From the NCBI GenBank assembly GCA_902616905.1, contig CACMUP010000002.1:62001-126000 (forward strand): 64,000 nt of DNA, read 5' to 3'. Below the pieces are notes generated by a model. It was not told where the DNA came from, made no database searches, and worked only from the letters and a program-made list of their open reading frames with translations. Below are positions 25,459 through 42,235 of the stretch, in pieces; position 1 is the stretch's first letter, and every line of letters begins with the position of its first letter. Both the position numbers and the translations under genes were made by a program. The stretch is from an uncultured Bacteroidota bacterium (lineage in GTDB: Bacteria > Bacteroidota > Bacteroidia > Flavobacteriales > Flavobacteriaceae).

Positions 25459-25532
25459 TCCTCCTTAGCTCAGTTGGTTAGAGCATCTGACTGTTAATCA
25501 GAGGGTCCTTGGTTCGAGCCCAAGAGGAGGAG
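25459..25532 (+). tRNA. tRNA-Asn(GTT)
   Basis: A 74-nt tRNA that can be folded by eye: acceptor TCCTCCT / AGGAGGA with discriminator G, D-arm GCTC...GAGC, anticodon stem TCTGA/TCAGA with loop CTGTTAA carrying GTT, and T-arm with GGTTCGAGCC. CCA is not encoded. It is the shared boundary of islands I and II: its 5' 44 bases are duplicated at 18940-18983, and its 3' part is duplicated at 42402-42448. Confidence 0.97.
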
Positions 25533-29645: not shown

Positions 29646-31376
29646 TTAAATACTCCATATTTCCAGTGCTTTACTGCTAAGCTGCTCAGCCCTTTCTGTA
29701 ATTGTTTGTTCATTCCAGTTTTCGTAATTCAGGAAAGAGGTCGTCATCTTAAGACTTGAAAATTCTCTAAGTGTTTGTTTTTTTCTCTCCCAAGATTGAT
29801 TTCTTAACTTACTATTGAGGTTTTTAGTAATCAAAGTTAAATTCCCCATGGTCAAAATTTTCTGTTTTCTCTTGAATTTTGAAAGCTCATCAAGATTATC
29901 GTTAGACCAGTTTTCTTCCCATTTTTTTGGCATCATGTGTTCAACTGAGAATGATTTAGAGGATAAAGTTTTAGTGTCAGAATATTCTGAATCAATATCT
30001 TTTAAAGCGATTATGTATAATATTGCTCCAGCTTGTTTGTTTGATAAAATGCTAGTTTGAAAAGCTTCTTGAACTTCAGCATTTGTAGGGATCCTATTTC
30101 CAAACTCATTGAAAGATTTCAATATCCCTAGGAGCTCCGATGATTCAATTTCCTTCTCAGATTTTATCTTATCTAATGACCTTATGATCTGAATGAACAA
30201 TTTGTTGTAGTTTTTTGTCGTGAACTTACAAATCTGCCTAAGGGCAACGAAAGACTCAAGAATCTTGAAACAACGTACAAGCTCTTGATCATCTTTTATA
30301 TTATTGTATAGATACAATACTAGAGGAAAAATGGTAGTGATTTCTAAGTTTTCCATTAGGTGAAAAAACCTTTTGATTTCATCGTTGTAACTTATCTCAA
30401 CAAGCTGTTCTTTCTGAGGCATTTCTAGATATATGTTAGCAAGATCATTCAACTTTAATAAAAACTGTTTTTTTTCTTTGATTGTAATATCTTTAAGATG
30501 AAGCTTGTATTCAGAGAATAGTTTTTCAAGTCGTACTTCTTTTTTTGTCTCAATAATTAACATGCAATAAAGAAGAAGCTCAATGTTATCACGCTTTACT
30601 CTACCAGAGGATCTTACGGTACTCCAAAATTCTACCTGCTCTTCATCATTTTCAAAAATACTTTGCCATTCTTTCTCATAATATTCAATTAACTCTTTGT
30701 CTTTGAAGAGATAGTTTTTCAAAAGCTCTGCTATAGTAAGCCTAACACCAAGTGAATTAATGGTATCAAAAATCTCTTGTTCATCGTCATCTTTGTCCAG
30801 CAGCATGCTTATGATAGGAATCTTATGAAGTAAAACTTGCTTTATCATTTCTCTTTGATGGTCAGTAAAGGTTTCTAGCTTTTTTATAAAATACTGATAT
30901 GACTTTATTATAGAACTATTGTCTTCATCATCAATATCACCTGGGGTCTCCATTATCTTTTTAAAGTTTGGCTTATCAATCCTACTATGTATCATTCGAT
31001 AATGTTTTTTTGAGAAGCTATCTTTAAACCAAAGTAAAGATTCAATACCATCTTTTAGGTTTGGTAGATCACCCTTTGAAGTATCTGCTAAGGCTTTTAG
31101 AAAAACTGTTATAGTTGTAAGTCTTTGTTGACCGTCAATTAATTCAACGATATTTTCACTTAAATTTTTGTTTTCCTTTTGCTTTGTAATTACGGTACCT
31201 ATGAAGTGTTCACTTTGAACACCATTTTCATAAGCTTCAACTTCACCAATCAAATGATCCCAAAAAATAATCCAATTATCTTCAGACCAAACATAGGCTC
31301 TTTGGAAGAATGGAATCTCAAATTGAAGATTTCCTTGAAAGAAGTCTTGAAGTTTTTGTTTATTGGCATTTATCAT
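29646..31376 (-). CDS. GmrSD-like DUF262/DUF1524 protein (type IV restriction)
   Basis: A 576-residue protein from the ATG at 31376; longer forms back to 31535 are possible, but only at 31376 does the conserved FFQGNLQFEIPFFQRAYVW start cleanly. The DUF262 domain shows the ParB-like motif ELIDGQQRLTTITVFLKAL (NTP binding and hydrolysis), and the C-terminal DUF1524 HNH nuclease shows FSVEHMMPKKWEENW and MGNLTLITKNLNSKLRN. Single-chain GmrSD-type enzymes cut phage DNA with modified (for example glycosylated) cytosines. The modification dependence here is inference. Its 3' end touches the nuclease remnant. Confidence 0.88.
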   Translation of the reverse strand: MINANKQKLQDFFQGNLQFEIPFFQRAYVWSEDNWIIFWDHLIGEVEAYENGVQSEHFIGTVITKQKENKNLSENIVELIDGQQRLTTITVFLKALADTSKGDLPNLKDGIESLLWFKDSFSKKHYRMIHSRIDKPNFKKIMETPGDIDDEDNSSIIKSYQYFIKKLETFTDHQREMIKQVLLHKIPIISMLLDKDDDEQEIFDTINSLGVRLTIAELLKNYLFKDKELIEYYEKEWQSIFENDEEQVEFWSTVRSSGRVKRDNIELLLYCMLIIETKKEVRLEKLFSEYKLHLKDITIKEKKQFLLKLNDLANIYLEMPQKEQLVEISYNDEIKRFFHLMENLEITTIFPLVLYLYNNIKDDQELVRCFKILESFVALRQICKFTTKNYNKLFIQIIRSLDKIKSEKEIESSELLGILKSFNEFGNRIPTNAEVQEAFQTSILSNKQAGAILYIIALKDIDSEYSDTKTLSSKSFSVEHMMPKKWEENWSNDNLDELSKFKRKQKILTMGNLTLITKNLNSKLRNQSWERKKQTLREFSSLKMTTSFLNYENWNEQTITERAEQLSSKALEIWSI

Positions 31377-31492
31377 GGCTGAGGCAACTTTTAATAAATA
31401 CTTTTCCTTTCTAAAAAAGCGAGAAGAGTAAATATATTGATATACTTTATTTTTCTGTTTTATATCATCATAAATATAAATTACTTTTAAAT

Positions 31493-31777
31493 CTACTCTT
31501 TGTAATTGTAATAAACAATTTTTCCTTCCCACCAATCCATCGGCATATCACCAATATCACCTTTCCAGTTCATTCTCCAAACCTTGAAATATTTATTCTC
31601 TTTGAGACATTTCTCTAAAATAACTTTCACCGCATCTACATCTAGACCCATTCCTTGATAACCCCACCATCCTAAATAAACCATATTCACCCTAAGGTCA
31701 ATCTTTGGAAACTTCTTTTTAAACTTCTTCATTAATAGTTGAAGATCTGGATGATCTATAAGCTGAGTAGAATGCAT
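31493..31777 (-). CDS. Hypothetical protein, 94 aa
   Basis: A small Trp-rich protein (LGWWGYQGMGLDVDAVKVIL, KVWRMNWKGDIG, WWEGKIVYY) with a basic N-terminal helix (MKKFKKKFPKI). No signal peptide, no membrane helix, no family recognised. It ends 116 bp before the DUF262 start on the same strand and could be its co-transcribed partner. Divergent from the methyltransferase gene with an 86-bp gap. Confidence 0.55.
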   Translation of the reverse strand: MHSTQLIDHPDLQLLMKKFKKKFPKIDLRVNMVYLGWWGYQGMGLDVDAVKVILEKCLKENKYFKVWRMNWKGDIGDMPMDWWEGKIVYYNYKE

Positions 31778-31863: not shown

Positions 31864-33123
31864 ATGGATAGATTTAAAGCAGTAGGTTTATTTTCAGGCT
31901 GTGGTGGTTTAGACTTGGGTTTTATCAATAGTGGATTTGATATTATTTGGGCTAATGACTTCGATAAAGACGCAGTAAATACTTACAAAAAAAATATTGG
32001 TCCAGAAATTAAACTGGGTGATATTACTAAGATAAGTAGTGGTGAAATACCTGATGATTTTGATGTGCTTTTAGGTGGATTCCCCTGTCAAGGCTTTTCA
32101 GTAGCAAACACCAAGAGAAGCATGGAAGACAAAAGAAACTTTCTTTACCTGGAAATGCTAAGAATTATTAGGGATAAAAAACCAAAGTTTTTTGTTGCTG
32201 AAAATGTCAAAGGTATTTTATCACTTCAAAAAGGTGAAGTAATACGTATGATTAAGAATGATTTTGAAAGTATAGGATATAAGGTTAATTATAGACTTTT
32301 AAAAGCAAGCGATTACGGAGTTCCACAAAATAGAGAGAGGGTAATTATTATTGGCAATAGATTAGGTTTAGACAACCCTTTCCCTTTAATTACTCATGGA
32401 ACAGGTAATGATCTTTTTAATAATACCACGAAGCCATATGTAAATGTTAAAGATATTCTAGACGATTTGAAAGCAGTAAGAACAAGAGATTTCAGTTTTG
32501 ATCTTGATGGTAAACAAATTCACAATCACATTGCTAGAACAAATGTTAGTGATAAGTTTTGGGGAAGAAAACATAATGTTAATCAACATGATGTTTGTGA
32601 CTATCTTAAGCTTTGGAGAAAAAAAAGTGGTATCTCAACAAAGAAAATTGATGCCCATTTTGGATATGCACATACAGCTGGTCACTGGTTCAGAAAGGAT
32701 AATAATTCAGGGTCTATTCCAAAACCTGAAGACTGGTGGGAACTGAAAAAACTATTGGAATTTGATGATGAATTTGACAAAAGAGTGACAGAAATGGAAG
32801 AAAAAACAATTGTTTTTGAACAGTCATTAAGAATCAATAATTGGGACACACCGAGTGACACGATAACTGCAACTGGTCCTGAAATTCATCCCAATAGGAA
32901 GAGAAGAATGAGTGTCAGAGAATGTGCTAGATTACAAACATTCCCAGATGATTTTGTCTTTACAGGTGCTTTAAATTCAATGTATCGACAAATTGGAAAT
33001 GCTGTTCCAGTTCTACTTGGTAAAAGAATAGGTGAAGAAATTTTTAATAGTTTAAAAAGTCATGAACTCGAAGAATCAAAAACTGAAGCAAATAGAGTCA
33101 TTAGAGAAGAAGTACTTAAATAA
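31864..33123 (+). CDS. DNA (cytosine-5) methyltransferase
   Basis: A 419-residue type II-like cytosine-C5 methylase. Ordered motifs are clear: I AVGLFSGCGGLDLGF, IV GGFPCQGFSVANT with catalytic Cys, VI FFVAENVKG, VIII DYGVPQNRERVIIIG and X YRQIGNAVPVLLG. The target-recognition region (about 200-330) holds YAHTAGHWFRKDNNSGSIPK, which I cannot tie to a recognition sequence. It is the first gene of a six-gene plus-strand run, and its last 62 bp overlap the next gene, the predicted cognate endonuclease. It should protect host DNA from that enzyme. Confidence 0.95.
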   Translation: MDRFKAVGLFSGCGGLDLGFINSGFDIIWANDFDKDAVNTYKKNIGPEIKLGDITKISSGEIPDDFDVLLGGFPCQGFSVANTKRSMEDKRNFLYLEMLRIIRDKKPKFFVAENVKGILSLQKGEVIRMIKNDFESIGYKVNYRLLKASDYGVPQNRERVIIIGNRLGLDNPFPLITHGTGNDLFNNTTKPYVNVKDILDDLKAVRTRDFSFDLDGKQIHNHIARTNVSDKFWGRKHNVNQHDVCDYLKLWRKKSGISTKKIDAHFGYAHTAGHWFRKDNNSGSIPKPEDWWELKKLLEFDDEFDKRVTEMEEKTIVFEQSLRINNWDTPSDTITATGPEIHPNRKRRMSVRECARLQTFPDDFVFTGALNSMYRQIGNAVPVLLGKRIGEEIFNSLKSHELEESKTEANRVIREEVLK

Positions 33124-33847
33124 GTATTTCCATTTTCTAAAGTTTGCCGAAGATGAAATTATAACTGGCTTTAAAACAAAAGACAAAATAAAACAGGATT
33201 GGCATGGTTTATATGCATCTGGTATTAGTGACTTTTCTACTGGTGCAGAAAGAATTGTTTATTCTCTTTTAAATGGTAAAGGTATAGGTCAGCCAAATTC
33301 ATCACCAGTTGGCAGTGATCTTTTTTTTGAAGTAGAAGATGCCTTTATTCATATTGATTTAAAAACAGTAGGTGCCTCACTTGAAGGAAAAACTAACATA
33401 GGAGATTACACTAGATCTATTTTTGTTGGATTAAATCAAAATTCATATAAAGGTCGAATGAAAGTTAGAGGAAAAAATGAACTTCGTGAATATACTCCTC
33501 AACTTCCTACTTTTTATAATAAGGGTAAATCAAATGAGAAAATTTGCTTGACTTACTTTGTTACCATTCTTTATGATAGTGATACTCTTGATACATTAGT
33601 TATGTCTATTGTATGTATGCCAAATGGCGAATTAGAACCAATTTACAAAGAGGACGTTCTAGCAGCTGGAAAAAACTTAGATAAGGCAAGATTCGAATTT
33701 ACTAGCACTCCAACATTTAGATTACTTGATGATAATGATTATAGAATCAAAGTAATTGTGTTTAAAAGTGATATGGATGATAGATATAAAAATAAGCTTA
33801 AGTTCTTCCAAGAAATATACTCTAAACAGAGTATGAACGAAACTTAA
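33062..33847 (+). CDS. Type II-like restriction endonuclease (PD-(D/E)XK)
   Basis: A 261-residue protein with a putative PD-(D/E)XK core: an N-terminal FSTGAERIVYSLLNGKGIG helix, then PVGSDLFFEVEDAFIHIDLK, where the Asp of GSD and Asp-x-Lys of IDLK fit the active site, then SIFVGLNQNSYKG. The gene starts inside the end of the methyltransferase gene (62 bp overlap, different frame), the classic layout of a type II modification-restriction pair. Specificity is unknown. I do not recognise a named REase family, so the call rests on motif plus context. Confidence 0.75.
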   Translation: MNSKNQKLKQIESLEKKYLNKYFHFLKFAEDEIITGFKTKDKIKQDWHGLYASGISDFSTGAERIVYSLLNGKGIGQPNSSPVGSDLFFEVEDAFIHIDLKTVGASLEGKTNIGDYTRSIFVGLNQNSYKGRMKVRGKNELREYTPQLPTFYNKGKSNEKICLTYFVTILYDSDTLDTLVMSIVCMPNGELEPIYKEDVLAAGKNLDKARFEFTSTPTFRLLDDNDYRIKVIVFKSDMDDRYKNKLKFFQEIYSKQSMNET

Positions 33848-33874: not shown

Positions 33875-33933
33875 TGTGTAATTTATTTACACATGTAGAT
33901 ATTAACTATGCAGTGTTAAACTTTTAAACACTG
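33875..33933. promoter_or_regulatory. Two inverted repeats upstream of Z1 gene (putative operator, copy 1)
   Basis: TGTGTAA-TTTAT-TTACACA at 33875-33893, then CAGTGTT-AAACTTTTA-AACACTG at 33911-33933, ending 3 bp before the ATG. The first dyad with its following ATATTAACTATG is repeated ahead of 35720 and 36764. It is a good candidate operator for the WYL regulator encoded in the operon. Confidence 0.6.
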
Positions 33934-33936
33934 TAT

Positions 33937-35691
33937 ATGACTGCTTATCAAAATTCTTGGAATAACGAAATTGAAAAACTATTAGGCGATTTAAATGCTC
34001 CTGATTCTCTTCATGAAGAATTGGTATTTATTTTATCTCATAACGAATTAACTCAGATTTACCCTAATCAAGTTATTAATGCTCTAAGGATTGCTAAATC
34101 GATTCAGTCCGGAAATATTAACACTTGTTTAGTAGCTCCAATGCAAAGTGGTAAGTCAGGAACAATCTATGTACTTGTTAATTATATTTTACCTGAGTTA
34201 GATCTAATTAATAAAAGCGGATCTGCAATTTTTGTTACTAGTATGAGAGATAAAGATCTCTTTAAACAAAATAAGGAAAACCTTGAAAGGGACTTCTATT
34301 CTGTTACAAACCAAAGCTATCTTCCAAGTAAGATTAATGTAAATAAAATGGATGAATTCTTTAGACATCCAAACCCCTTCAAATTGGTAAAAGATTTTAA
34401 AACTGATTTGATCATAAGAGATGAGGATCAATATGGTTCAGGTATTGAAAGCAGTTTTGATTTTGCCTTTTTTGAAAATCTTAGAAAAAAGCTTCCATCA
34501 ATTGGACTTCTTTCAGTTTCTGCTACCCCTTATGATATTCTTGATGCTAAAATTCAGGGATATGATGTTGAATTAATTGATGGTGAAAGACCAGAAAAAT
34601 ATTTTGGAATTACTGAAATGCTTAATAATGGAGTTATAGAAAACTACCCCAAAGATTTTAATCCACTTGAGATTATTGCCAGCTACAAAGGATTAGAATC
34701 ATATATCATTCACCCTAAGCTTAAAGAGTATATAAATTTTCTAAACAGTTTTAAAGATGGTTTAGGAATAATTAGAGTTTCAAACTCTCAAAGGGCTTTA
34801 GTTCTTAGAGATGAGATAAAATCTAACTACAGTAATAAGTTAGAGTGTATTGTAATCGGATCAAATATTATGTGCGATTACAAAATTAATGAGGGCTTGG
34901 ATTATGTGAAAAAGCAGGTTTTAAACCAATCAAAAAGGGTTGTTCTCATTGTGGTACAAGCCTTAACTGCAGGAAAAGATCTTAGGCTTCTTAAAGAAAA
35001 AGTTCGATTTGGTATTGAGTCACGAAATAAACAGCTTGCTAATGGAGCTCAAGGTATTTCAGGGAGGTTGTGCGGATACCATACTAACCGAAACTTTAAA
35101 CTTATGGCAAGTATTGACCTTTTAAAGCATTATTCAGCATTTGAAATGGATCCTGAAGTATTCGCAGATCAGAACTGGCAGAATGAATTGTATAACCAGA
35201 AAGTAAGGGGATTCAGTACTCATACGAGGTTAAAAATCAACCAAAAGCAAGGTGTTTTTACACCTATAATTAATGTTGATACAATTACCATTGAGGAATT
35301 GATTGTTGGAAAGCATGAAAAACTTTCCTTTCTAAGCAAGGAGGAAATTGATAAGGTTATTAATGTATTTAATTCCAAATTCATTAATGAGCCAAATACA
35401 ATGAGGCTTAATCTCAACAAAACTACTGTTAGGATTGCATCTTCATATAATCATGATGATAACAGAGTATATAAAAATTGGGGTTCTACAATTAATTCTG
35501 ATTTTGGCGCTGTTTTCTTTAAAAAAAGGGAGTATGACTTCGGTTTGCTTATTTCTAACTATAAAACCTCTGATCAAAGGAATAAAATTGGTTTTACAGG
35601 AATTAAAATTTTTAAATCCGGTAATCCAGTTTACAAGGATCAACAAACTGTGACTATTAATGACTCAATGTATAGTCTAGAAGAAAACTAA
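33937..35691 (+). CDS. Z1-type superfamily 2 helicase-like ATPase
   Basis: A 584-residue P-loop protein. Walker A is in VAPMQSGKSGTIYVLV (about 65-80), Walker B-like DLIIRDEDQYG, motif III LLSVSATPYDI, and the C-terminal RecA fold has RVVLIVVQALTAGKDLRLL and GISGRLCGYHTNR, the motif VI region characteristic of Z1 domain proteins. Z1 ATPases occur in defence islands beside cytosine methylases and GHKL ATPases. The likely role is ATP-driven DNA translocation or remodelling for the nuclease. It is separated from the endonuclease gene by 89 bp containing two dyads. Confidence 0.8.
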   Translation: MTAYQNSWNNEIEKLLGDLNAPDSLHEELVFILSHNELTQIYPNQVINALRIAKSIQSGNINTCLVAPMQSGKSGTIYVLVNYILPELDLINKSGSAIFVTSMRDKDLFKQNKENLERDFYSVTNQSYLPSKINVNKMDEFFRHPNPFKLVKDFKTDLIIRDEDQYGSGIESSFDFAFFENLRKKLPSIGLLSVSATPYDILDAKIQGYDVELIDGERPEKYFGITEMLNNGVIENYPKDFNPLEIIASYKGLESYIIHPKLKEYINFLNSFKDGLGIIRVSNSQRALVLRDEIKSNYSNKLECIVIGSNIMCDYKINEGLDYVKKQVLNQSKRVVLIVVQALTAGKDLRLLKEKVRFGIESRNKQLANGAQGISGRLCGYHTNRNFKLMASIDLLKHYSAFEMDPEVFADQNWQNELYNQKVRGFSTHTRLKINQKQGVFTPIINVDTITIEELIVGKHEKLSFLSKEEIDKVINVFNSKFINEPNTMRLNLNKTTVRIASSYNHDDNRVYKNWGSTINSDFGAVFFKKREYDFGLLISNYKTSDQRNKIGFTGIKIFKSGNPVYKDQQTVTINDSMYSLEEN

Positions 35692-35719: not shown

Positions 35720-36727
35720 ATGGGATCAATTTCTCAATCGTTTCGGCTTAAAATACTCGATCAGTGCCTTAGAAACCCCAGCAGGAGGTATTCAATTGGT
35801 GATCTTATTGAAGAATGCAAGACAAGATTTATCGAGAGAAAGGGTACAGAATTTGGCGTAAGTAGAAAAACTATTTATAACGATCTTGATCATATACAAG
35901 AAAGATATGATATCGAACTTGAAAAAACCAAAGACGGAAAGCATGTTTATTATAGCTATTCCGATAAAGATTTTTCAATTGATAACGAACCATTAAATGA
36001 ACAGGAAGCAAAACTTCTAAAATCTGCCATACAAACTATTTTAAATTTTAGTGGTCTTCCTCAGTTTGATCTTTTAGAATCTCTTTCAAGAAGACTTGAT
36101 AAAACATTTGATCTAAATGAAGATCACAGAAACATAGTTGGTTTTGAAAATAATTTGAGTCTTACCGGAATTAACTTTTTAAAAGATGTTTTTAACGCTA
36201 TTAAAGAGAAACATGTTCTTGAAATAATGTATCAGTCATTTAATTCAAAAGAGGCAAAAGAAATAGAATTTCATCCCTATTTTATGAAACAATATAATTC
36301 TAGATGGTTTGTATTGGGAATGAATCCAGCTTTTTCTAATATAGGACCAACTAATCTTGCTTTTGATAGGATCAAATCAATAAAAGTTTTGAATTCAAAG
36401 CAGTATATTGAAACAAATGAAGATTATTTGAATGATTATTTTTATGATTTTGTAGGTGTTACTAACTCTACTAACGAAATTGAAAATATCGTTTTAAGAG
36501 TTAATAAGGAAAGATGGAAATATATGGACACAAAACCAATACATCATTCATACAAGTTAATTTCAACTCATGATGATCATGTGGTGGTTAATTATAAATT
36601 AAAAATAAATCAAGAATTTAAATCTAAAATCTTGGAATATGGTAAAGATGTCATAGTAATGGAGCCGGATCATCTTAAAAATGAAATTAAACATATATTA
36701 AAAAGTGCATTTAAACAATATGAGTAA
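35720..36727 (+). CDS. WYL-domain transcriptional regulator
   Basis: A 335-residue protein with an N-terminal DNA-binding part (RRYSIGDLIEECKTRF, then GVSRKTIYNDLDHIQERYDI, a winged helix-turn-helix) and a C-terminal WYL domain (HVLEIMYQSFNSKEAKEIEF, then SRWFVLGMN and LAFDRIKSIKVL). WYL regulators bind nucleic-acid-derived ligands and control many defence islands, usually as repressors of the operon they sit in. The repeated dyad ahead of this gene and of 33937 and 36764 fits autoregulation. Confidence 0.9.
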   Translation: MGSISQSFRLKILDQCLRNPSRRYSIGDLIEECKTRFIERKGTEFGVSRKTIYNDLDHIQERYDIELEKTKDGKHVYYSYSDKDFSIDNEPLNEQEAKLLKSAIQTILNFSGLPQFDLLESLSRRLDKTFDLNEDHRNIVGFENNLSLTGINFLKDVFNAIKEKHVLEIMYQSFNSKEAKEIEFHPYFMKQYNSRWFVLGMNPAFSNIGPTNLAFDRIKSIKVLNSKQYIETNEDYLNDYFYDFVGVTNSTNEIENIVLRVNKERWKYMDTKPIHHSYKLISTHDDHVVVNYKLKINQEFKSKILEYGKDVIVMEPDHLKNEIKHILKSAFKQYE

Positions 36728-36756
36728 ACTATTTACACACGTTAATATTAGCTTTG
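36722..36756. promoter_or_regulatory. Putative operator copy 3 and -7 box (TAGCTTTG)
   Basis: GAGTAAACTATTTACACACG, then TTAATATTAGCTTTG. The dyad GTAAA-CTA-TTTAC aligns with copies 1 and 2. TAGCTTTG (36749-36756) is a perfect -7 box 7 bp before the ATG at 36764, so a regulator bound here would sit on the promoter. Confidence 0.6.
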
Positions 36757-36763
36757 TTTCATT

Positions 36764-39742
36764 ATGAAGGATTTATCAAAAATAACGGTAGAACTATCAA
36801 TTGATGAAAAGATTAGGACTTCTACATCTATAGCTTTGTGGATTCAAGAAAAATACTTTACCGAATTTAAAATTGTTTTAAAAATTGACGAGCTAATCTT
36901 TTTATTCCACTCACTTTATTTTAATTCATACCGTTTTCCTCCCCTAGATCATAATAAAAAGATTAAAAAAGCTTTTTCAAGAAATAAAATTGAATCTGTA
37001 AAGGATATTGATGATATACTTGAAAAATTTAAAATTAATTTTCCTCGTAATTTTGATGAAGATGATATTCTAAGTAATATAATTAAAAGAAATGAGCATA
37101 TTTTCCCCTCTGTAACTGATAGAGTCATTTTTTTTAATTCAAAAATTTATGGCGGATTTTCAAAAAAAATTGGAAATAAAATTGGTATAGTTTTTTTAGC
37201 TGATCAACTCATTAATCAATATATAAATGATAATAAAAATAAATCTGATGATAAGACTAATAATGAATATTCTGTTCTTTTAAAAGGATTAATTGGAAAC
37301 TTAACATCAGAAAAATACTTCAATACTAAAATTCGTAATTACATAGCTCATTCAGGTGAAGAAATTATAGATCACAGTAAGATGGGTTTATATTATACTC
37401 CTAGTCATATAATTGATATAATCAAAAACAGTTTTGGTCCCTTAAAAGGCAAAAAAGTTTATGGCTCCGGAAAAGGAAAACCAGGATATGAAAATTTAGC
37501 TTTTTCAGATTCAAGTGAGTTTAGTACTAACTTTTCTAAATTTGGAGGCAGGAATCATAATCATCCTCTTTTCTCTGAATTTGTTTTATTCTTTTTCTCA
37601 AGCATAGATTATCTTATTGCAAGATATGTTCAGCAAATTAATGATTATGAAAAACTAAGGAGCAATTTTAATGTTTCTACAAAACCACTAACACTAGATG
37701 AAATTTTAAAAAAAACAAAAAAAGACTTAGTCTATTTCGAAGTTTCAGATTTAAACAAAATCGCTACAGGAATCGATAATCCTTCCCTATTTGATACTTT
37801 TAAATTGGATCTTCATAAAAAAAATACTTTAGATTTAAATGAAATTCTGAATGATAAAGGGAGTTTATTTATTTATGGTTTTGAAAATCAACTTTTAAGG
37901 CGACTAACTTTTCTAAATGAATTGATAAACCAAAAATTAATTAAAGCTATAGTTCAATTATTGGGTGATAGAAAAGTTACCACAGCTAGACATTTATTAA
38001 TAGAAATTACATTAAATCCAAACGAATCAATAAACTTTGTGTATGCAAGTGATTTAATTGGTCTTGAAAAAGAACATATCGAAAACGCAAAGAAAATAGG
38101 GGGTTTTTTAAAAAACCAAAACGATAATTTTAGGGAAAATAATAATGAAGACATATTTATTGAATATAGAAATAGACATATTCCCTACAGCAAAATAAAA
38201 GAAGTATCTGATTTAGATCCAAGTAGGTATAGCTATAAAATAGACTCCAAAAATTTAATCCAACTAAAGGATATTCTTGAGAGGGTTCAAAGCGAAAAAC
38301 AATCTTTATTGACGGATGATGAAAATTACCAAATCATACATCCAGAACTTGAATCGTTGAGTGATATTGAGAATTTTAAATCAACAAAATTATCTTTTGA
38401 GAAAAACAAAAAAATAAACTGGACTACTGAAAATGTTAAACCAAATTTTATCTACAAAAATTTAGTTAGGATATTACCCAATACAATTGTCCTATTGAAA
38501 AAAGCAGGAACAAATCTTAGATTTGGTTTTTTTAATCCATCTGATATTTCAAAGAAATACTATATCAATTCAAGTATTGGATCCAATAGATTTGAGTTTT
38601 TTAAACTCACAAGCAAAGAAATTTTACCAGAATTTTTATTCATCGAGATGAGTAAAAAATATTTCAGAAACATGCTTCAAAGAATGTCCGTTGGAGTTGT
38701 GCCTAGAATAGCTTCTAATTCTTTCTTAAACTCTAGTATTTTATTAAAGACAAAAATTGACCAAAAGGAACAAATTGGGGATTACTATAGAGTATCAAAT
38801 AACATTAAATCATTTAAGAATAAAGGAAGGGCTTTTGAAAGATCAAATATTCATATCATAAATAGAATTGAGCACAGACTAGATCCAAAAATAGGAAACT
38901 TTAAAAGTTATTTAAACAGACTAATTAAAGAAATTGATGCTGGCTCAACCGATAAACAAAAACAACTAAAATATCTTAATATTTTAAAAGAAACTGTAAA
39001 CTCAATGGAGAGTTTAATTGAACAATCTGGGAAAGAAATAAAAAATCCAGATAAAATAGAATTAGAAAAAATTTCTATAAACTCATTGATAGAAGTCATA
39101 AAGAATATTGATTCTAATCAGTACGTTTTTGATATTGAATTAGAACAATTCGAATCTTCTAAAGAAGAAGATTTGGATACAGCTTACTCAAATTTATATA
39201 TTTTAGATTATAAGGTTGAATTTTATGATACCATAGAAGAATTCGAGAAAGATTATTATAAAATTCCTGATCCAGATAAGGATGATCATAATTGGGATAT
39301 GGCGGCTAAAAAAGAAATTTATGAATTTCTTGATGAGGCACAAATTTTATCAAATAAATCTCTGTTTACAGAAATGGTTGACATTATTTTAACAAACACA
39401 AATATTCATGCATTCAATGAAATCAAAAAAGAAAATCAAGTTCTTAAAATAGGAATAGATCTTAGTATTGAAATAAATGATGCCGAACAACCTGAATATT
39501 ATTTTGTGCTTAGCTTTTCAAATAATGGAGTAAAACTTCCAAAAAAATATGAAAAGAAACATTTTATCCAAAGTGGAAAGGAATCAGAAAAAGGAACTGG
39601 TTCAGGAGGATATTATTTAAACGATATAGCAACAAGTTTCGAAAACCCAGATTGGGAATTTATTACTGATTCTGAAGAAATATCAGATAATTTTGCCCCA
39701 GCACTAACCTATAAATTTAAGTTTAAAATCTATGAAGGATAG
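36764..39742 (+). CDS. 992-aa HsdM/HsdS-like protein fused to a histidine-kinase-type module
   Basis: I see these parts in order. Residues 1-300: helical, with a HEPN-like RNYIAH motif at 191-196. About 330-500: like the C-terminal part of a type I N6-adenine methylase (LLRRLTFLNELINQKLIKAI, then TTARHLLIEITLN and DLDPSRYSYKI) but with no SAM or NPPF/Y motif, so it should not methylate. About 555-665: HsdS-like target-recognition pattern (ILPEFLFIEMSKKYFRNML, VGVVPRIASNSFLNSSILL). 698-725: an H-box-like IEHRLDPKIG with His704. 866-990: GHKL ATPase with N-box (EMVDIILTNTNIHAF), G1 (FSNNGVKLP) and G2 (KGTGSGGYYLNDIA). The next gene, overlapping by 11 bp, encodes a receiver domain, so this looks like a histidine kinase whose sensor is built from restriction-modification parts. 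Confidence 0.7.
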   Translation: MKDLSKITVELSIDEKIRTSTSIALWIQEKYFTEFKIVLKIDELIFLFHSLYFNSYRFPPLDHNKKIKKAFSRNKIESVKDIDDILEKFKINFPRNFDEDDILSNIIKRNEHIFPSVTDRVIFFNSKIYGGFSKKIGNKIGIVFLADQLINQYINDNKNKSDDKTNNEYSVLLKGLIGNLTSEKYFNTKIRNYIAHSGEEIIDHSKMGLYYTPSHIIDIIKNSFGPLKGKKVYGSGKGKPGYENLAFSDSSEFSTNFSKFGGRNHNHPLFSEFVLFFFSSIDYLIARYVQQINDYEKLRSNFNVSTKPLTLDEILKKTKKDLVYFEVSDLNKIATGIDNPSLFDTFKLDLHKKNTLDLNEILNDKGSLFIYGFENQLLRRLTFLNELINQKLIKAIVQLLGDRKVTTARHLLIEITLNPNESINFVYASDLIGLEKEHIENAKKIGGFLKNQNDNFRENNNEDIFIEYRNRHIPYSKIKEVSDLDPSRYSYKIDSKNLIQLKDILERVQSEKQSLLTDDENYQIIHPELESLSDIENFKSTKLSFEKNKKINWTTENVKPNFIYKNLVRILPNTIVLLKKAGTNLRFGFFNPSDISKKYYINSSIGSNRFEFFKLTSKEILPEFLFIEMSKKYFRNMLQRMSVGVVPRIASNSFLNSSILLKTKIDQKEQIGDYYRVSNNIKSFKNKGRAFERSNIHIINRIEHRLDPKIGNFKSYLNRLIKEIDAGSTDKQKQLKYLNILKETVNSMESLIEQSGKEIKNPDKIELEKISINSLIEVIKNIDSNQYVFDIELEQFESSKEEDLDTAYSNLYILDYKVEFYDTIEEFEKDYYKIPDPDKDDHNWDMAAKKEIYEFLDEAQILSNKSLFTEMVDIILTNTNIHAFNEIKKENQVLKIGIDLSIEINDAEQPEYYFVLSFSNNGVKLPKKYEKKHFIQSGKESEKGTGSGGYYLNDIATSFENPDWEFITDSEEISDNFAPALTYKFKFKIYEG

Positions 39743-40697
39743 AATAAGAATCGTTTGGGTTGATGATGAATATGAAAATATTGACCAATCTGGATTTATA
39801 GAAGATTGTAATGAGGCAAATATTGAATTAAAAAAATTTAGATCTAAAAATGCAGCTTTAAGTGAGATAAGAAAATTTCATGTTCTCTATGATCTTTTTC
39901 TTTTAGATGGAAGGATTGTAGAAAATGAAGATGATTCTTCAGAAATGGCTGAAGCAAAATACTCCAGACAATTAAGAGAAGAAATTAATAATATTTTACC
40001 AACACACAAGCCAATACTTGTAAGAACAGGAAAAATATTTGAAGAAGAATTTGATTGGTATTATGAAATATTTGGAAATGAAAATATTTTTAAAAAAAGT
40101 GAGGAGTCTCAAAATATTATTGAAGCCATTTTCAAGAATGTAAAAAATTCACCAAGAGTTGTTTTTAGAAATAAAAATTTTTTGTTGATCGAGATTTTAG
40201 AAAAATACTTTGACAATGAAACTATTAAAATTTTTATAGACCTCGCCATTACAACCGATATAGAAAATCATGAGTATAGGTACAATACACTAAGAAAACT
40301 TTTTGAAATTTACATAAGAAAACTCAATGAATTAAAATACTTGCCGGACGAGTTAGGCAAAGAAATTGTAAATATCAAAGGATCAAGTTTATTCTTAAGT
40401 GGAAAGTTTGCTAATTCTAAAATTCCAGGGATGGGTTTTGTTTTGCCTCAGGAAAGTGCCTTCAGCAGTACTTCTAAAACTCTAATCACCTACTTGTCAA
40501 ATCTTTTTAATGAAAAATCTCACACCCAATCAAATTATTATTCTCATGTAAAAGAAATTCCAACTACTTCTCTTTTTGAAAGTTGTTACTCAGGACTAAT
40601 TGAACTCTATGTTTATACTTTCAATTATTATATAGATAAAGTTTCCATAGAAACATGGAAATTAAAAGAACTTTCACATAGTAATAGAAATTTTTAA
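39732..40697 (+). CDS. Receiver-domain protein, cognate partner of the kinase-like fusion
   Basis: A 321-residue protein. Residues 1-130 are a response-regulator receiver domain with all key residues: acidic pocket Asp11-Asp12 in IVWVDDE, phospho-acceptor Asp59 in LFLLDG, Thr99 in ILVRTGK and Lys121 or Lys122 in NIFKKSEE. Residues 150-321 are helical (YNTLRKLFEIYIRKLNELKY, then LITYLSNLFNEKSH and LFESCYSGLIELYVYTFNYY) with no DNA-binding motif that I recognise, so the output is probably protein interaction or an unknown effector. It overlaps the kinase-like gene by 11 bp. Its end overlaps the convergent integrase gene by 4 bp. Confidence 0.8.
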   Translation: MKDRIRIVWVDDEYENIDQSGFIEDCNEANIELKKFRSKNAALSEIRKFHVLYDLFLLDGRIVENEDDSSEMAEAKYSRQLREEINNILPTHKPILVRTGKIFEEEFDWYYEIFGNENIFKKSEESQNIIEAIFKNVKNSPRVVFRNKNFLLIEILEKYFDNETIKIFIDLAITTDIENHEYRYNTLRKLFEIYIRKLNELKYLPDELGKEIVNIKGSSLFLSGKFANSKIPGMGFVLPQESAFSSTSKTLITYLSNLFNEKSHTQSNYYSHVKEIPTTSLFESCYSGLIELYVYTFNYYIDKVSIETWKLKELSHSNRNF

Positions 40698-42235
40698 ATT
40701 TTGAGAATCTTAATATCCCTTTTTTCAAGTAAGTTAGTGGTTAAATTTTCATAAGCCCTGTATAATTCATCTTGTTTTACAGATATTCTATGCATTGAAA
40801 AAAACAGACGATGCTGAGGTGCGAAAAAATTCTTACATAAATGATCAACCAAATAATTAAAAATATTTATCGTATCAAATTCTCTAAGTATGGCTAAATG
40901 ATAATAAGCTAATTTTCCAACAATCCTTGGTCTTGACATGTCCTTGTAATACTTCGTGATAGTTGGATCATTTTGTCCCATTAATGCTCTTCCGTAACTG
41001 TCAGGCACACCAAGTTCATCTGAAATGGTCATAAATGTTTTTCGTGCTTCTTTGAATTTTGGAAGACCTATTTCTTTTGCTTTTTTTCTAAATAATCTCC
41101 ATGTATTGTCAAATAATTTAGGACTTCCAGTATTTGTAATTGCAAAAATCTTTAGAAAATCAACCTCCTCCACAGATTTAGATTTAATTAGTTCTTCCCT
41201 AGATTTTGCTAGATCACTATTGTTATATAAACTAATATGGGGATGTGTTAAGGCAATAAGCTTTCTTAAAAAAGATATCAGATTTTCAATAGGTGGAAGC
41301 ATTAACATATTCATTGGATATTCGCCCTTGTGCCTTCTGTGCATATAAACTTCTTTTCTTCCAATTATTTTTTCATCCTTATATCCTTTTTTAATTGAAT
41401 CTATCTCTCTTTCAAAATCATAATCTAAATCGTGTGACGTTAAATCGTGAATATCTTCTTGATACAATCCCCTCATAGAAAACATCAATAACCAAAAACC
41501 TACAGCTTCAACTTGCCTTAAAGCCTTGGCATGACTGCTATGTCTTTTTGTTTTCATTCTAATATTGTCGATTGCACGATAAATGTCATCAGGTGATGCA
41601 GAATGTACCACTGGCATTGGAGGCACCTTATTCTTAAGATCCTTTCCAAAAGTGAAATCTTGGTATAAATATTTTTTTTCAACAGCGTGATTACAAACTG
41701 TTTTTATATTAGTAAGGTAGGTATTGAAGGTGGTTGGACTTTTTCCTTCATTTTGTAATTTATTTCTAAGCTTAACAAGATTAATCTCAGTTATATCGGA
41801 GAACAGAAGATCGTTTATATCAAGGTGATTACCTACAGTTATAACGGTATCCATACAGTTTTTTATATGTTTTGGCTTCTTGTATTCACTAAAAACTGTT
41901 CTTATATACCCCTTTATGCTTTTTGCTGATTCACTTGAGGATAGCATCTTGGCTGCTGTATCAAAATCAATCTGACCTAGAACGTACTTATTTTTAACGT
42001 CTGACATTTTAAACCAATACTTATCAAGCTTGTCATTTATCGCTGCACTATTCTCGTGGGAAGGCTCTACTCTACTAAATGTTTTGTTCCAAAGTTGGGG
42101 AAGTATAAATATACCTTCAACCTTAATACGTCTATCGTTATCTTTTCTTTTCAGTGTACCATCCTTGAAACGTATATAAAGTTGTGCTTTACCATCACTT
42201 TTTCTAACCGTTTTAAATACAAATCCAATAGTCAT
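40694..42235 (-). CDS. Tyrosine recombinase / integrase of island II
   Basis: A 513-residue site-specific recombinase. The N-terminal arm-binding domain (GFVFKTVRKSDGKAQLYIRF), the SAM-like core domain (about 105-205) and a catalytic domain are present. Arg255 is in MFSMRGLYQEDIHDL (box I). Box II reads FKEARKTFMTISDELG with Arg398, and then MGQNDPTITKYY with Tyr429/430 as nucleophile. The usual His residues of box II are replaced by Lys399 and Gln421, an unusual catalytic set. It lies 166 bp from the right att repeat and reads away from it, as expected for an element integrase. Confidence 0.88.
   Translation of the reverse strand: MTIGFVFKTVRKSDGKAQLYIRFKDGTLKRKDNDRRIKVEGIFILPQLWNKTFSRVEPSHENSAAINDKLDKYWFKMSDVKNKYVLGQIDFDTAAKMLSSSESAKSIKGYIRTVFSEYKKPKHIKNCMDTVITVGNHLDINDLLFSDITEINLVKLRNKLQNEGKSPTTFNTYLTNIKTVCNHAVEKKYLYQDFTFGKDLKNKVPPMPVVHSASPDDIYRAIDNIRMKTKRHSSHAKALRQVEAVGFWLLMFSMRGLYQEDIHDLTSHDLDYDFEREIDSIKKGYKDEKIIGRKEVYMHRRHKGEYPMNMLMLPPIENLISFLRKLIALTHPHISLYNNSDLAKSREELIKSKSVEEVDFLKIFAITNTGSPKLFDNTWRLFRKKAKEIGLPKFKEARKTFMTISDELGVPDSYGRALMGQNDPTITKYYKDMSRPRIVGKLAYYHLAILREFDTINIFNYLVDHLCKNFFAPQHRLFFSMHRISVKQDELYRAYENLTTNLLEKRDIKILKI

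Follow-up and report, generated by a model that had tools for sequence, protein, structure and literature searches.

The window analysed here is a stretch of 64,000 nucleotides from an uncultured Bacteroidota bacterium of the family Flavobacteriaceae (contig CACMUP010000002.1, positions 62,001 to 126,000). We focused on an open reading frame (ORF) at 36764..39742 (+). Its product, of 992 residues, is a predicted sensor histidine kinase. Comparison with a family profile confirms a chain in which a putative remnant of the HsdM C-terminal part is followed by an HsdS-type target-recognition domain (TRD), a helix bearing His704 and a histidine-kinase ATPase. We interpret the protein as the sensing part of a two-component cassette that is associated with defence genes. 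It would mimic an M2S methyltransferase and report a constant cue, either S-adenosylmethionine (SAM), an anti-restriction mimic or DNA occupancy. We give this interpretation about an even chance of being right.

Domain composition of the window protein

The 992-residue product has no match in Pfam, PADLOC or NCBIfam at E ≤ 1, and none among Protein Data Bank sequences at E ≤ 5. Its domains were assessed with a profile of 26 homologues, from which the window protein was left out, and with 500 shuffles as a control. Residues 362–989 align to this profile with a score of 100.6 bits; the best shuffle reached 7.7. Divided into parts, the alignment gives 12.6 bits for residues 362–498 (37847..38257, +), the HsdM C-terminal remnant, and 24.0 bits for residues 500–669 (38261..38770, +), the TRD. 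The GHKL (HATPase_c-like) domain, residues 857–989 (39332..39730, +), scores 64.0 bits. For each of these three parts, 0/500 shuffles scored as high. An earlier note, made from the letters of this DNA, had read residues ~330–500 as HsdM-like and ~555–665 as a target-recognition segment, and both proposals stand. Profiles built from the true enzymes were less informative. That of HsdM gave 2.8 bits (shuffles up to 9.7) and that of HsdS a marginal 8.2 bits at residues 551–685 (shuffles up to 7.3). Hence, the HsdM/HsdS reading of the window protein is drawn from its relatives.

The presumed phosphorylation site, His704 (38873..38875, +), lies in the helix after the TRD. It is invariant in an alignment of 16 rows, as are N878, N920, G922, G946 and G948 of the GHKL domain. 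Counterparts of all six residues are invariant in a separate 15-row alignment. The H-box and the N, G1 and G2 boxes named in the earlier note are thus upheld, and the MutL/Hsp90-type ATPase that it held in reserve, should His704 vary among homologues, fails. Foldseek, run with a weak model of the kinase, returned 428 rows at E ≤ 10. The best 50 are mostly sensor histidine kinases, and MutL, MORC, gyrase and Hsp90 are not among these 50. In 15/28 family members, 41 residues separate the TRD Gln and His; the window protein has 37.

Residues 1–361 (36764..37846, +) are mostly helical by prediction and do not match the family HsdM core. The predicted local distance difference test score (pLDDT) of the model is below 50 here, and residues 1–360 have no plasmid match. 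This region contains RNYIAH, proposed earlier as a HEPN-like RX4H motif. R-x4-H occurs once in the protein, with 0.57 occurrences expected, and RNxxxH appears in 4.4% of shuffles. The motif is thus near chance level and lends the HEPN reading no support.

Relatives, cassette and operator

Whole-protein searches of genome contigs, viral contigs, plasmids and phages returned no relative. With the protein as query, 395 genomes of the same order gave one relative other than the query (G381, E 3e-13), together with one spurious match. A weak match, G250:C54 (L003), was dropped, its frame reading by eye as an Mfd-type helicase. With the receiver protein encoded next to the kinase, a match was obtained on a plasmid of Myroides odoratimimus; the gene before it there carries the annotation ‘N-6 DNA methylase’. 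This plasmid kinase matches N6_Mtase (1e-29) and HATPase_c (1e-6), with a sub-threshold match to Methylase_S (0.0033). A receiver profile found matches in 65 of 395 Bacteroidota-phylum genomes. Most are short and receiver-only; 11, the window's own among them, cover at least 200 model positions. A probe of genome contigs from the kinase side yielded 16 loci, all Bacteroidota as judged by eye from their titles; the probe was built from a Bacteroidota group and the result bears only on that group. Nothing was found when viral contigs were probed with a second sensor group.

The analysis covered 27 kinase loci in addition to that of the window. Two were dropped from all counts: L049, a receiver-like match with no kinase, and L067, a copy on a viral contig whose ORF lengths equal those of L054. 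L051, L060 and L066, copies of L041, L039 and L043, respectively, were dropped from the scripts. The near copies L062 and L063 were both counted, except that L063 was left out of two palindrome scripts. Pfam identifies N6_Mtase in 13/15 of the relatives' kinases, HATPase_c in 13/15 and Methylase_S in 7/15; the window protein matches none of them. These domain matches show, in the relatives, a predicted fusion of one M-like domain, one TRD and a histidine-kinase core in a single chain.

In the window, the kinase ORF and the receiver gene overlap by 11 bases and a gene for a WYL-domain transcription regulator (35720..36727, +; Pfam WYL 7.9e-10, WCX 7.3e-7) precedes the kinase. The receiver gene adjoins the kinase in 26/27 loci; in L061 the contig ends within the kinase. 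Within the fetched stretches, a WYL gene is present in 19 of the 27 loci and an intact HsdM in 22. L043 has HsdM pieces together with HsdR. AAA_15, PLD-like, radical-SAM and UvrD-helicase genes follow the L045 cassette, and an AAA_5 gene follows that of L050. At L047:4862-12685 the kinase–receiver pair sits among csm4-like, other RAMP, Csx1-like and cas6 genes, a type III CRISPR (Csm) operon. For the L047 kinase, BLAST returns no match to HsdM, and no methylase part is visible in it. The C5-methylase encoded near the window kinase is not among the two best reference matches of any ORF at the 24 loci listed. The comparison shows WYL regulator, sensor kinase and receiver protein as a predicted cassette associated with restriction–modification (R-M) and other defence genes. 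This putative control cassette is portable, being found beside type I R-M systems, a C5-methylase/restriction endonuclease pair and other defence genes. L008 (MT835483.1), filed as ‘Bacteriophage sp.’ from human faeces, holds a complete WYL–kinase–receiver–HsdM–HsdS–HsdR set.

The window receiver protein (39732..40697, +) has 321 residues. By model, Foldseek and alignment it consists of a receiver domain (D11, D12, D59, K122) and a helical domain. The model has a pLDDT of 79.5 and its best Foldseek matches are PorX. D12, D59 and K122 are invariant in a 16-row receiver alignment, with counterparts conserved in the relatives' alignment. A receiver fold with its acid pair, acceptor Asp and Lys is therefore present. 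By eye, most rows of the receiver alignment have a cold-shock-like tail, which the window receiver does not have; the L006 receiver gives a sub-threshold S1/CSD-like match. One of 15 receiver proteins matches the Schlafen AlbA_2 domain (6.4e-15), assigned to L050:2438-3385 from the sequence and by eye. This would be a receiver with a possible RNase effector.

A palindrome, TGCA-N7-TGCA, occurs between 100 bp before and 30 bp inside the kinase ORF in 20/27 loci. The background, in random 130-bp stretches from the same loci, is 0.95%. Exact copies number 33 in 559 kb, 13 of them elsewhere. The gap of 7 gives 40 near-matches, compared with 6 to 23 for six other gaps. The palindrome is present in 18 of the 19 loci with a WYL gene in the stretch, and the exception, L059, is one base off. 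Without a WYL gene in the stretch the count is 2/8; these two, L040 and L055, have a WYL gene further off (certain to be on the same contig in L040 alone). At 1e-10, no WYL gene is matched in the genomes of L044, L047 and L048, and their kinases have no palindrome. WYL genes are present in the genomes of L054 and L064, whose kinases lack an exact copy of the palindrome. From its co-occurrence with the WYL gene, we infer that TGCA-N7-TGCA is a putative WYL operator. A second copy at L045:10639 lies 52 bp before the AAA_15 gene downstream of the cassette, and further gene-proximal copies occur in L043 and L041.

What the sensor may report

We compared methylase motifs in 28 sensors, using the canonical motif names and the canonical division into SAM-binding and catalytic motifs. 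The motif I Gly is kept in 26/28 sensors and the motif II acid (Glu) in 25/28, as judged from the alignment. Motif I as [ND]PxxG is found in 22/28. The catalytic motif begins with Asn in 12/28, and in full, as [NDS]PP[FYW], it is present in 8/28 sensors versus 22/22 cognate HsdMs. The window row is not truly alignable in this region. Across the family, the alignment indicates that the catalytic motif is mostly lost and that the predicted SAM-site residues persist.

Histidine kinases act as dimers. Hence, the M-like domain and the TRD would each be present twice in a sensor dimer, which would match the composition of an M2S methyltransferase. We propose that such a dimer would hold SAM and/or DNA in the M2S manner, with methylation not required. 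The clamp could be altered by SAM depletion, by a DNA-mimic anti-restriction protein or by changed DNA occupancy. The helix after the TRD would run into the DHp bundle and relay this cue, so that His704 would be phosphorylated. The phosphate would then pass from His704 to D59 of the receiver protein. Finally, the receiver, together with WYL control at the putative TGCA-N7-TGCA operator, would determine how strongly the adjoining defence operon is expressed or how active it is. At the level of predicted sequence features, our comparisons show the domain architecture, the residues of kinase and receiver, the cassette and the palindrome; the ligand, the direction of the signal and the output are inferred. 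The cue of the window member may differ from that of the family, because its recognisable M core is lost and its neighbour is a C5-methylase/restriction endonuclease pair.

Several observations weigh against this interpretation. The HsdM catalytic core goes undetected in the window protein (4.5 bits; 6/500 shuffles as high). The DHp piece alone is also unrecognised (−1.3 bits; 276/500 shuffles as high), despite which His704 is aligned in the full-length alignment. In the G1 box, Asn replaces the usual Asp in all aligned rows. The kinase structure model has a mean pLDDT of 44.7 and is too poor for the fold of residues 1–560. Response_reg from Pfam reaches one of 15 receiver proteins (E 0.087), and Pfam recognises no DNA-binding domain in the 15 relatives' receivers. 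Lastly, 7/28 sensors have both methylase motifs intact and could methylate. With these seven, not every sensor need be a dead methylase. That description, taken from the earlier note, suits the window protein, in which the core is undetectable and the NPPF/Y and SAM motifs are absent as that note had said. It does not extend to the whole family.

A more specific form of our interpretation, which we hold tentatively and consider possible rather than probable, is an integrated-decoy immune receptor. An eroded M2S copy joined to a kinase would be triggered when phages or plasmids disable restriction, and this counter-defence would switch on the defence operon. Phage enzymes that destroy SAM would be one such trigger. 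Ocr and ArdA, described as DNA mimics in passages of PMC12707154, would be another.

The sensor is homologous to both HsdM and HsdS, and might instead join the real subunits in mixed complexes. The receiver would then tune restriction post-translationally and have little transcriptional role, in keeping with the lack of a recognised DNA-binding domain in the receivers. We think this unlikely. The cassettes of L045, L047 and L050 have no HsdM in the stretch, and that of the window is beside a C5-methylase. Moreover, a single sensor group occurs together with HsdMs from several families. In a 44-row tree, which leaves out the sensors of the window, L043, L045, L047 and L061 and the HsdM of L064, the sensors need one label change; support is 61/82, with the grouping in 62% of bootstrap trees and long-branch warnings. 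Cognate HsdMs split into several groups in the same tree. Near-identical HsdMs of 782–788 residues (L039, L054, L056, L062, L063) are paired with strongly diverged sensors, a sign of what appears to be module exchange.

Conservation of the TRD raises another alternative. Among 26 sensors, with L061 and L047 excluded, mean pairwise identity is highest in the TRD (0.35), with 0.30 in the M part and 0.25 in the kinase part. A conserved TRD could recognise a single invariant DNA site, which might be the putative operator that precedes the kinase in most loci, and the kinase could report the occupancy or methylation of this site. Binding of the operator by the sensor TRD was disfavoured, since the palindrome tracks the WYL gene. 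In addition, the L044 TRD resembles that of L045/L046, yet L044 has neither palindrome nor WYL gene. The geometry of the palindrome also resembles that of BrxR operators as given in passages of PMC9122601. We regard a reader of one fixed site as doubtful.

The earlier note proposed that the sensor recognises the sequence or methylation state of DNA. In this scheme it would read the target of the adjoining R-M system and signal when that target is unmethylated. The presence of a TRD and an M-like domain, and the position of the cassette beside R-M genes, speak for such a gauge. Sensor-TRD identity correlates with kinase identity (r = 0.73), and not with HsdS similarity (r = 0.0005; 21 loci), for which the measure, whole-protein BLAST, is coarse and the HsdSs of L054, L056, L057 and L062 were assigned by position alone, with no BLAST match to reference HsdSs. 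The cognate HsdS is the best match to the sensor TRD in 0/21 loci (~1 by chance) and the second best in 3. Its mean rank, summed by hand, is 11 of 21, the chance level. Near-identical HsdMs occur with different sensors and the cassette is also found beside systems with no HsdM in the stretch. We consider a methylation gauge quite improbable; from these comparisons, the ligand of the sensor is probably not the target of the adjoining R-M systems. From the tree and the TRD comparisons, the cassette appears to have been shuffled among R-M systems. A fused kinase paired with a receiver survives from the earlier proposal; recognition of its own system's DNA finds no support. The functional inference should probably shift from reading the system's own target to reading a constant cue.

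Should the sensor indeed report the level of SAM or the presence of anti-restriction proteins, it would be the bacterial equivalent of a decoy immune receptor, and the way in which type I R-M systems sense attack would be open to direct test. Suitable mutants are readily made in the operator and in the conserved residues. In the usual picture, R-M systems are either constitutive or controlled by small repressors. The family of Bacteroidota defence operons described here appears to carry a phosphorelay with a sensor built from restriction-enzyme parts.

Window neighbourhood and known systems

The adjoining R-M system of the window comprises a C5-cytosine DNA methyltransferase (31864..33123, +; Pfam DNA_methylase 1.9e-89) and a probable type II restriction endonuclease (33062..33847, +; PADLOC REase_II 2.6e-9). 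A helicase-like gene (33937..35691, +) is the first in the run helicase–WYL–kinase–receiver. Its product has no Pfam match and carries what we take, by eye, to be superfamily 2 (SF2) motifs. Among 296 genomes searched it was found in its own genome only, with one weak plasmid match besides. A weak candidate for a diverged operator, TGTGTA-N7-TACACA (33875..33893), fits at 10/12 positions and lies 43 bp before the helicase gene; the window holds 11 perfect 7-5-7 palindromes, so this one may be due to chance. Beside this system, a GmrSD-type gene lies on the opposite strand (29646-31535; GmrSD_N 1.4e-34, GmrSD_C 7.8e-22), and the type I operon of L039 has two GmrSD_N genes inside. A tyrosine-recombinase-like integrase gene (40694-42235) has its end abutting the receiver gene, which suggests a mobile island. 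Only one tRNA, at 25459, was identified in the window. The proportion of G and C (GC) is 0.258–0.275 across 36000-40999, which covers the kinase and receiver genes, versus 0.289–0.337 in the remaining 2-kb steps of the region 24000–47999. Decay of the window copy into a member with no working signal would fit its undetectable methylase core, its tailless receiver and its GC below that of its neighbours, but is highly improbable given the open 992-codon frame, the invariant kinase and receiver residues and the retained gene order and overlap.

Our interpretation of the window gene as the sensor of a defence-associated cassette can be set against described systems. Like the type I methyltransferase M2S, built of HsdM and HsdS, the sensor relatives have N6_Mtase and one Methylase_S-like TRD. 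They differ in placing both in one chain with a kinase and in having mostly lost the catalytic motif. We know of no HsdR-linked activity of the sensor family's own. Fusion of a methylase/TRD sensor with a histidine kinase is not described in the titles, abstract openings and passages of the literature examined, nor in passages of PMC12255303, PMC2292703, PMC7641849 and PMC8523701.

Two-component-like pairs of HEF_HK (PF19191) and Response_reg_2 (PF19192) beside R-M systems are described in parts of PMC8011034. These are likewise GHKL kinase-like and receiver-like neighbours, linked to R-M systems that include C5-methylases. Their kinases differ in consisting of HATPase_c_3, HEF_HK and HATPase_c, and the parts of PMC8011034 searched mention no fused methylase/TRD or WYL. 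Neither PF19191 nor PF19192 is among the Pfam matches of the window proteins, the 15 kinase relatives or the 15 receiver relatives. A search of 100 genomes for the HEF_HK family gave no signal in the control genomes either, and so carries no weight as to absence. Passages of PMC12839542 present BREX loci with Schlafen RNases to which a minimal histidine kinase is fused, a further case of kinase modules in defence loci, and one receiver here has AlbA_2. In those passages, the Schlafen fusions have no methylase/TRD sensor.

According to passages of PMC13373217, CapK and CapS are a GHKL kinase and a regulator encoded with defence operons, R-M included. There, CapK is an HTH-STAS-GHKL protein that phosphorylates a Ser of a STAS-wHTH repressor, unlike the His kinase and receiver predicted here. 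The WYL repressors BrxR and CapW, in the portions of PMC9122601 consulted, share with our cassette a WYL regulator beside a defence operon and an inverted-repeat operator. The term ‘histidine kinase’ is absent from that text, whereas our cassette links its WYL gene with a two-component pair.

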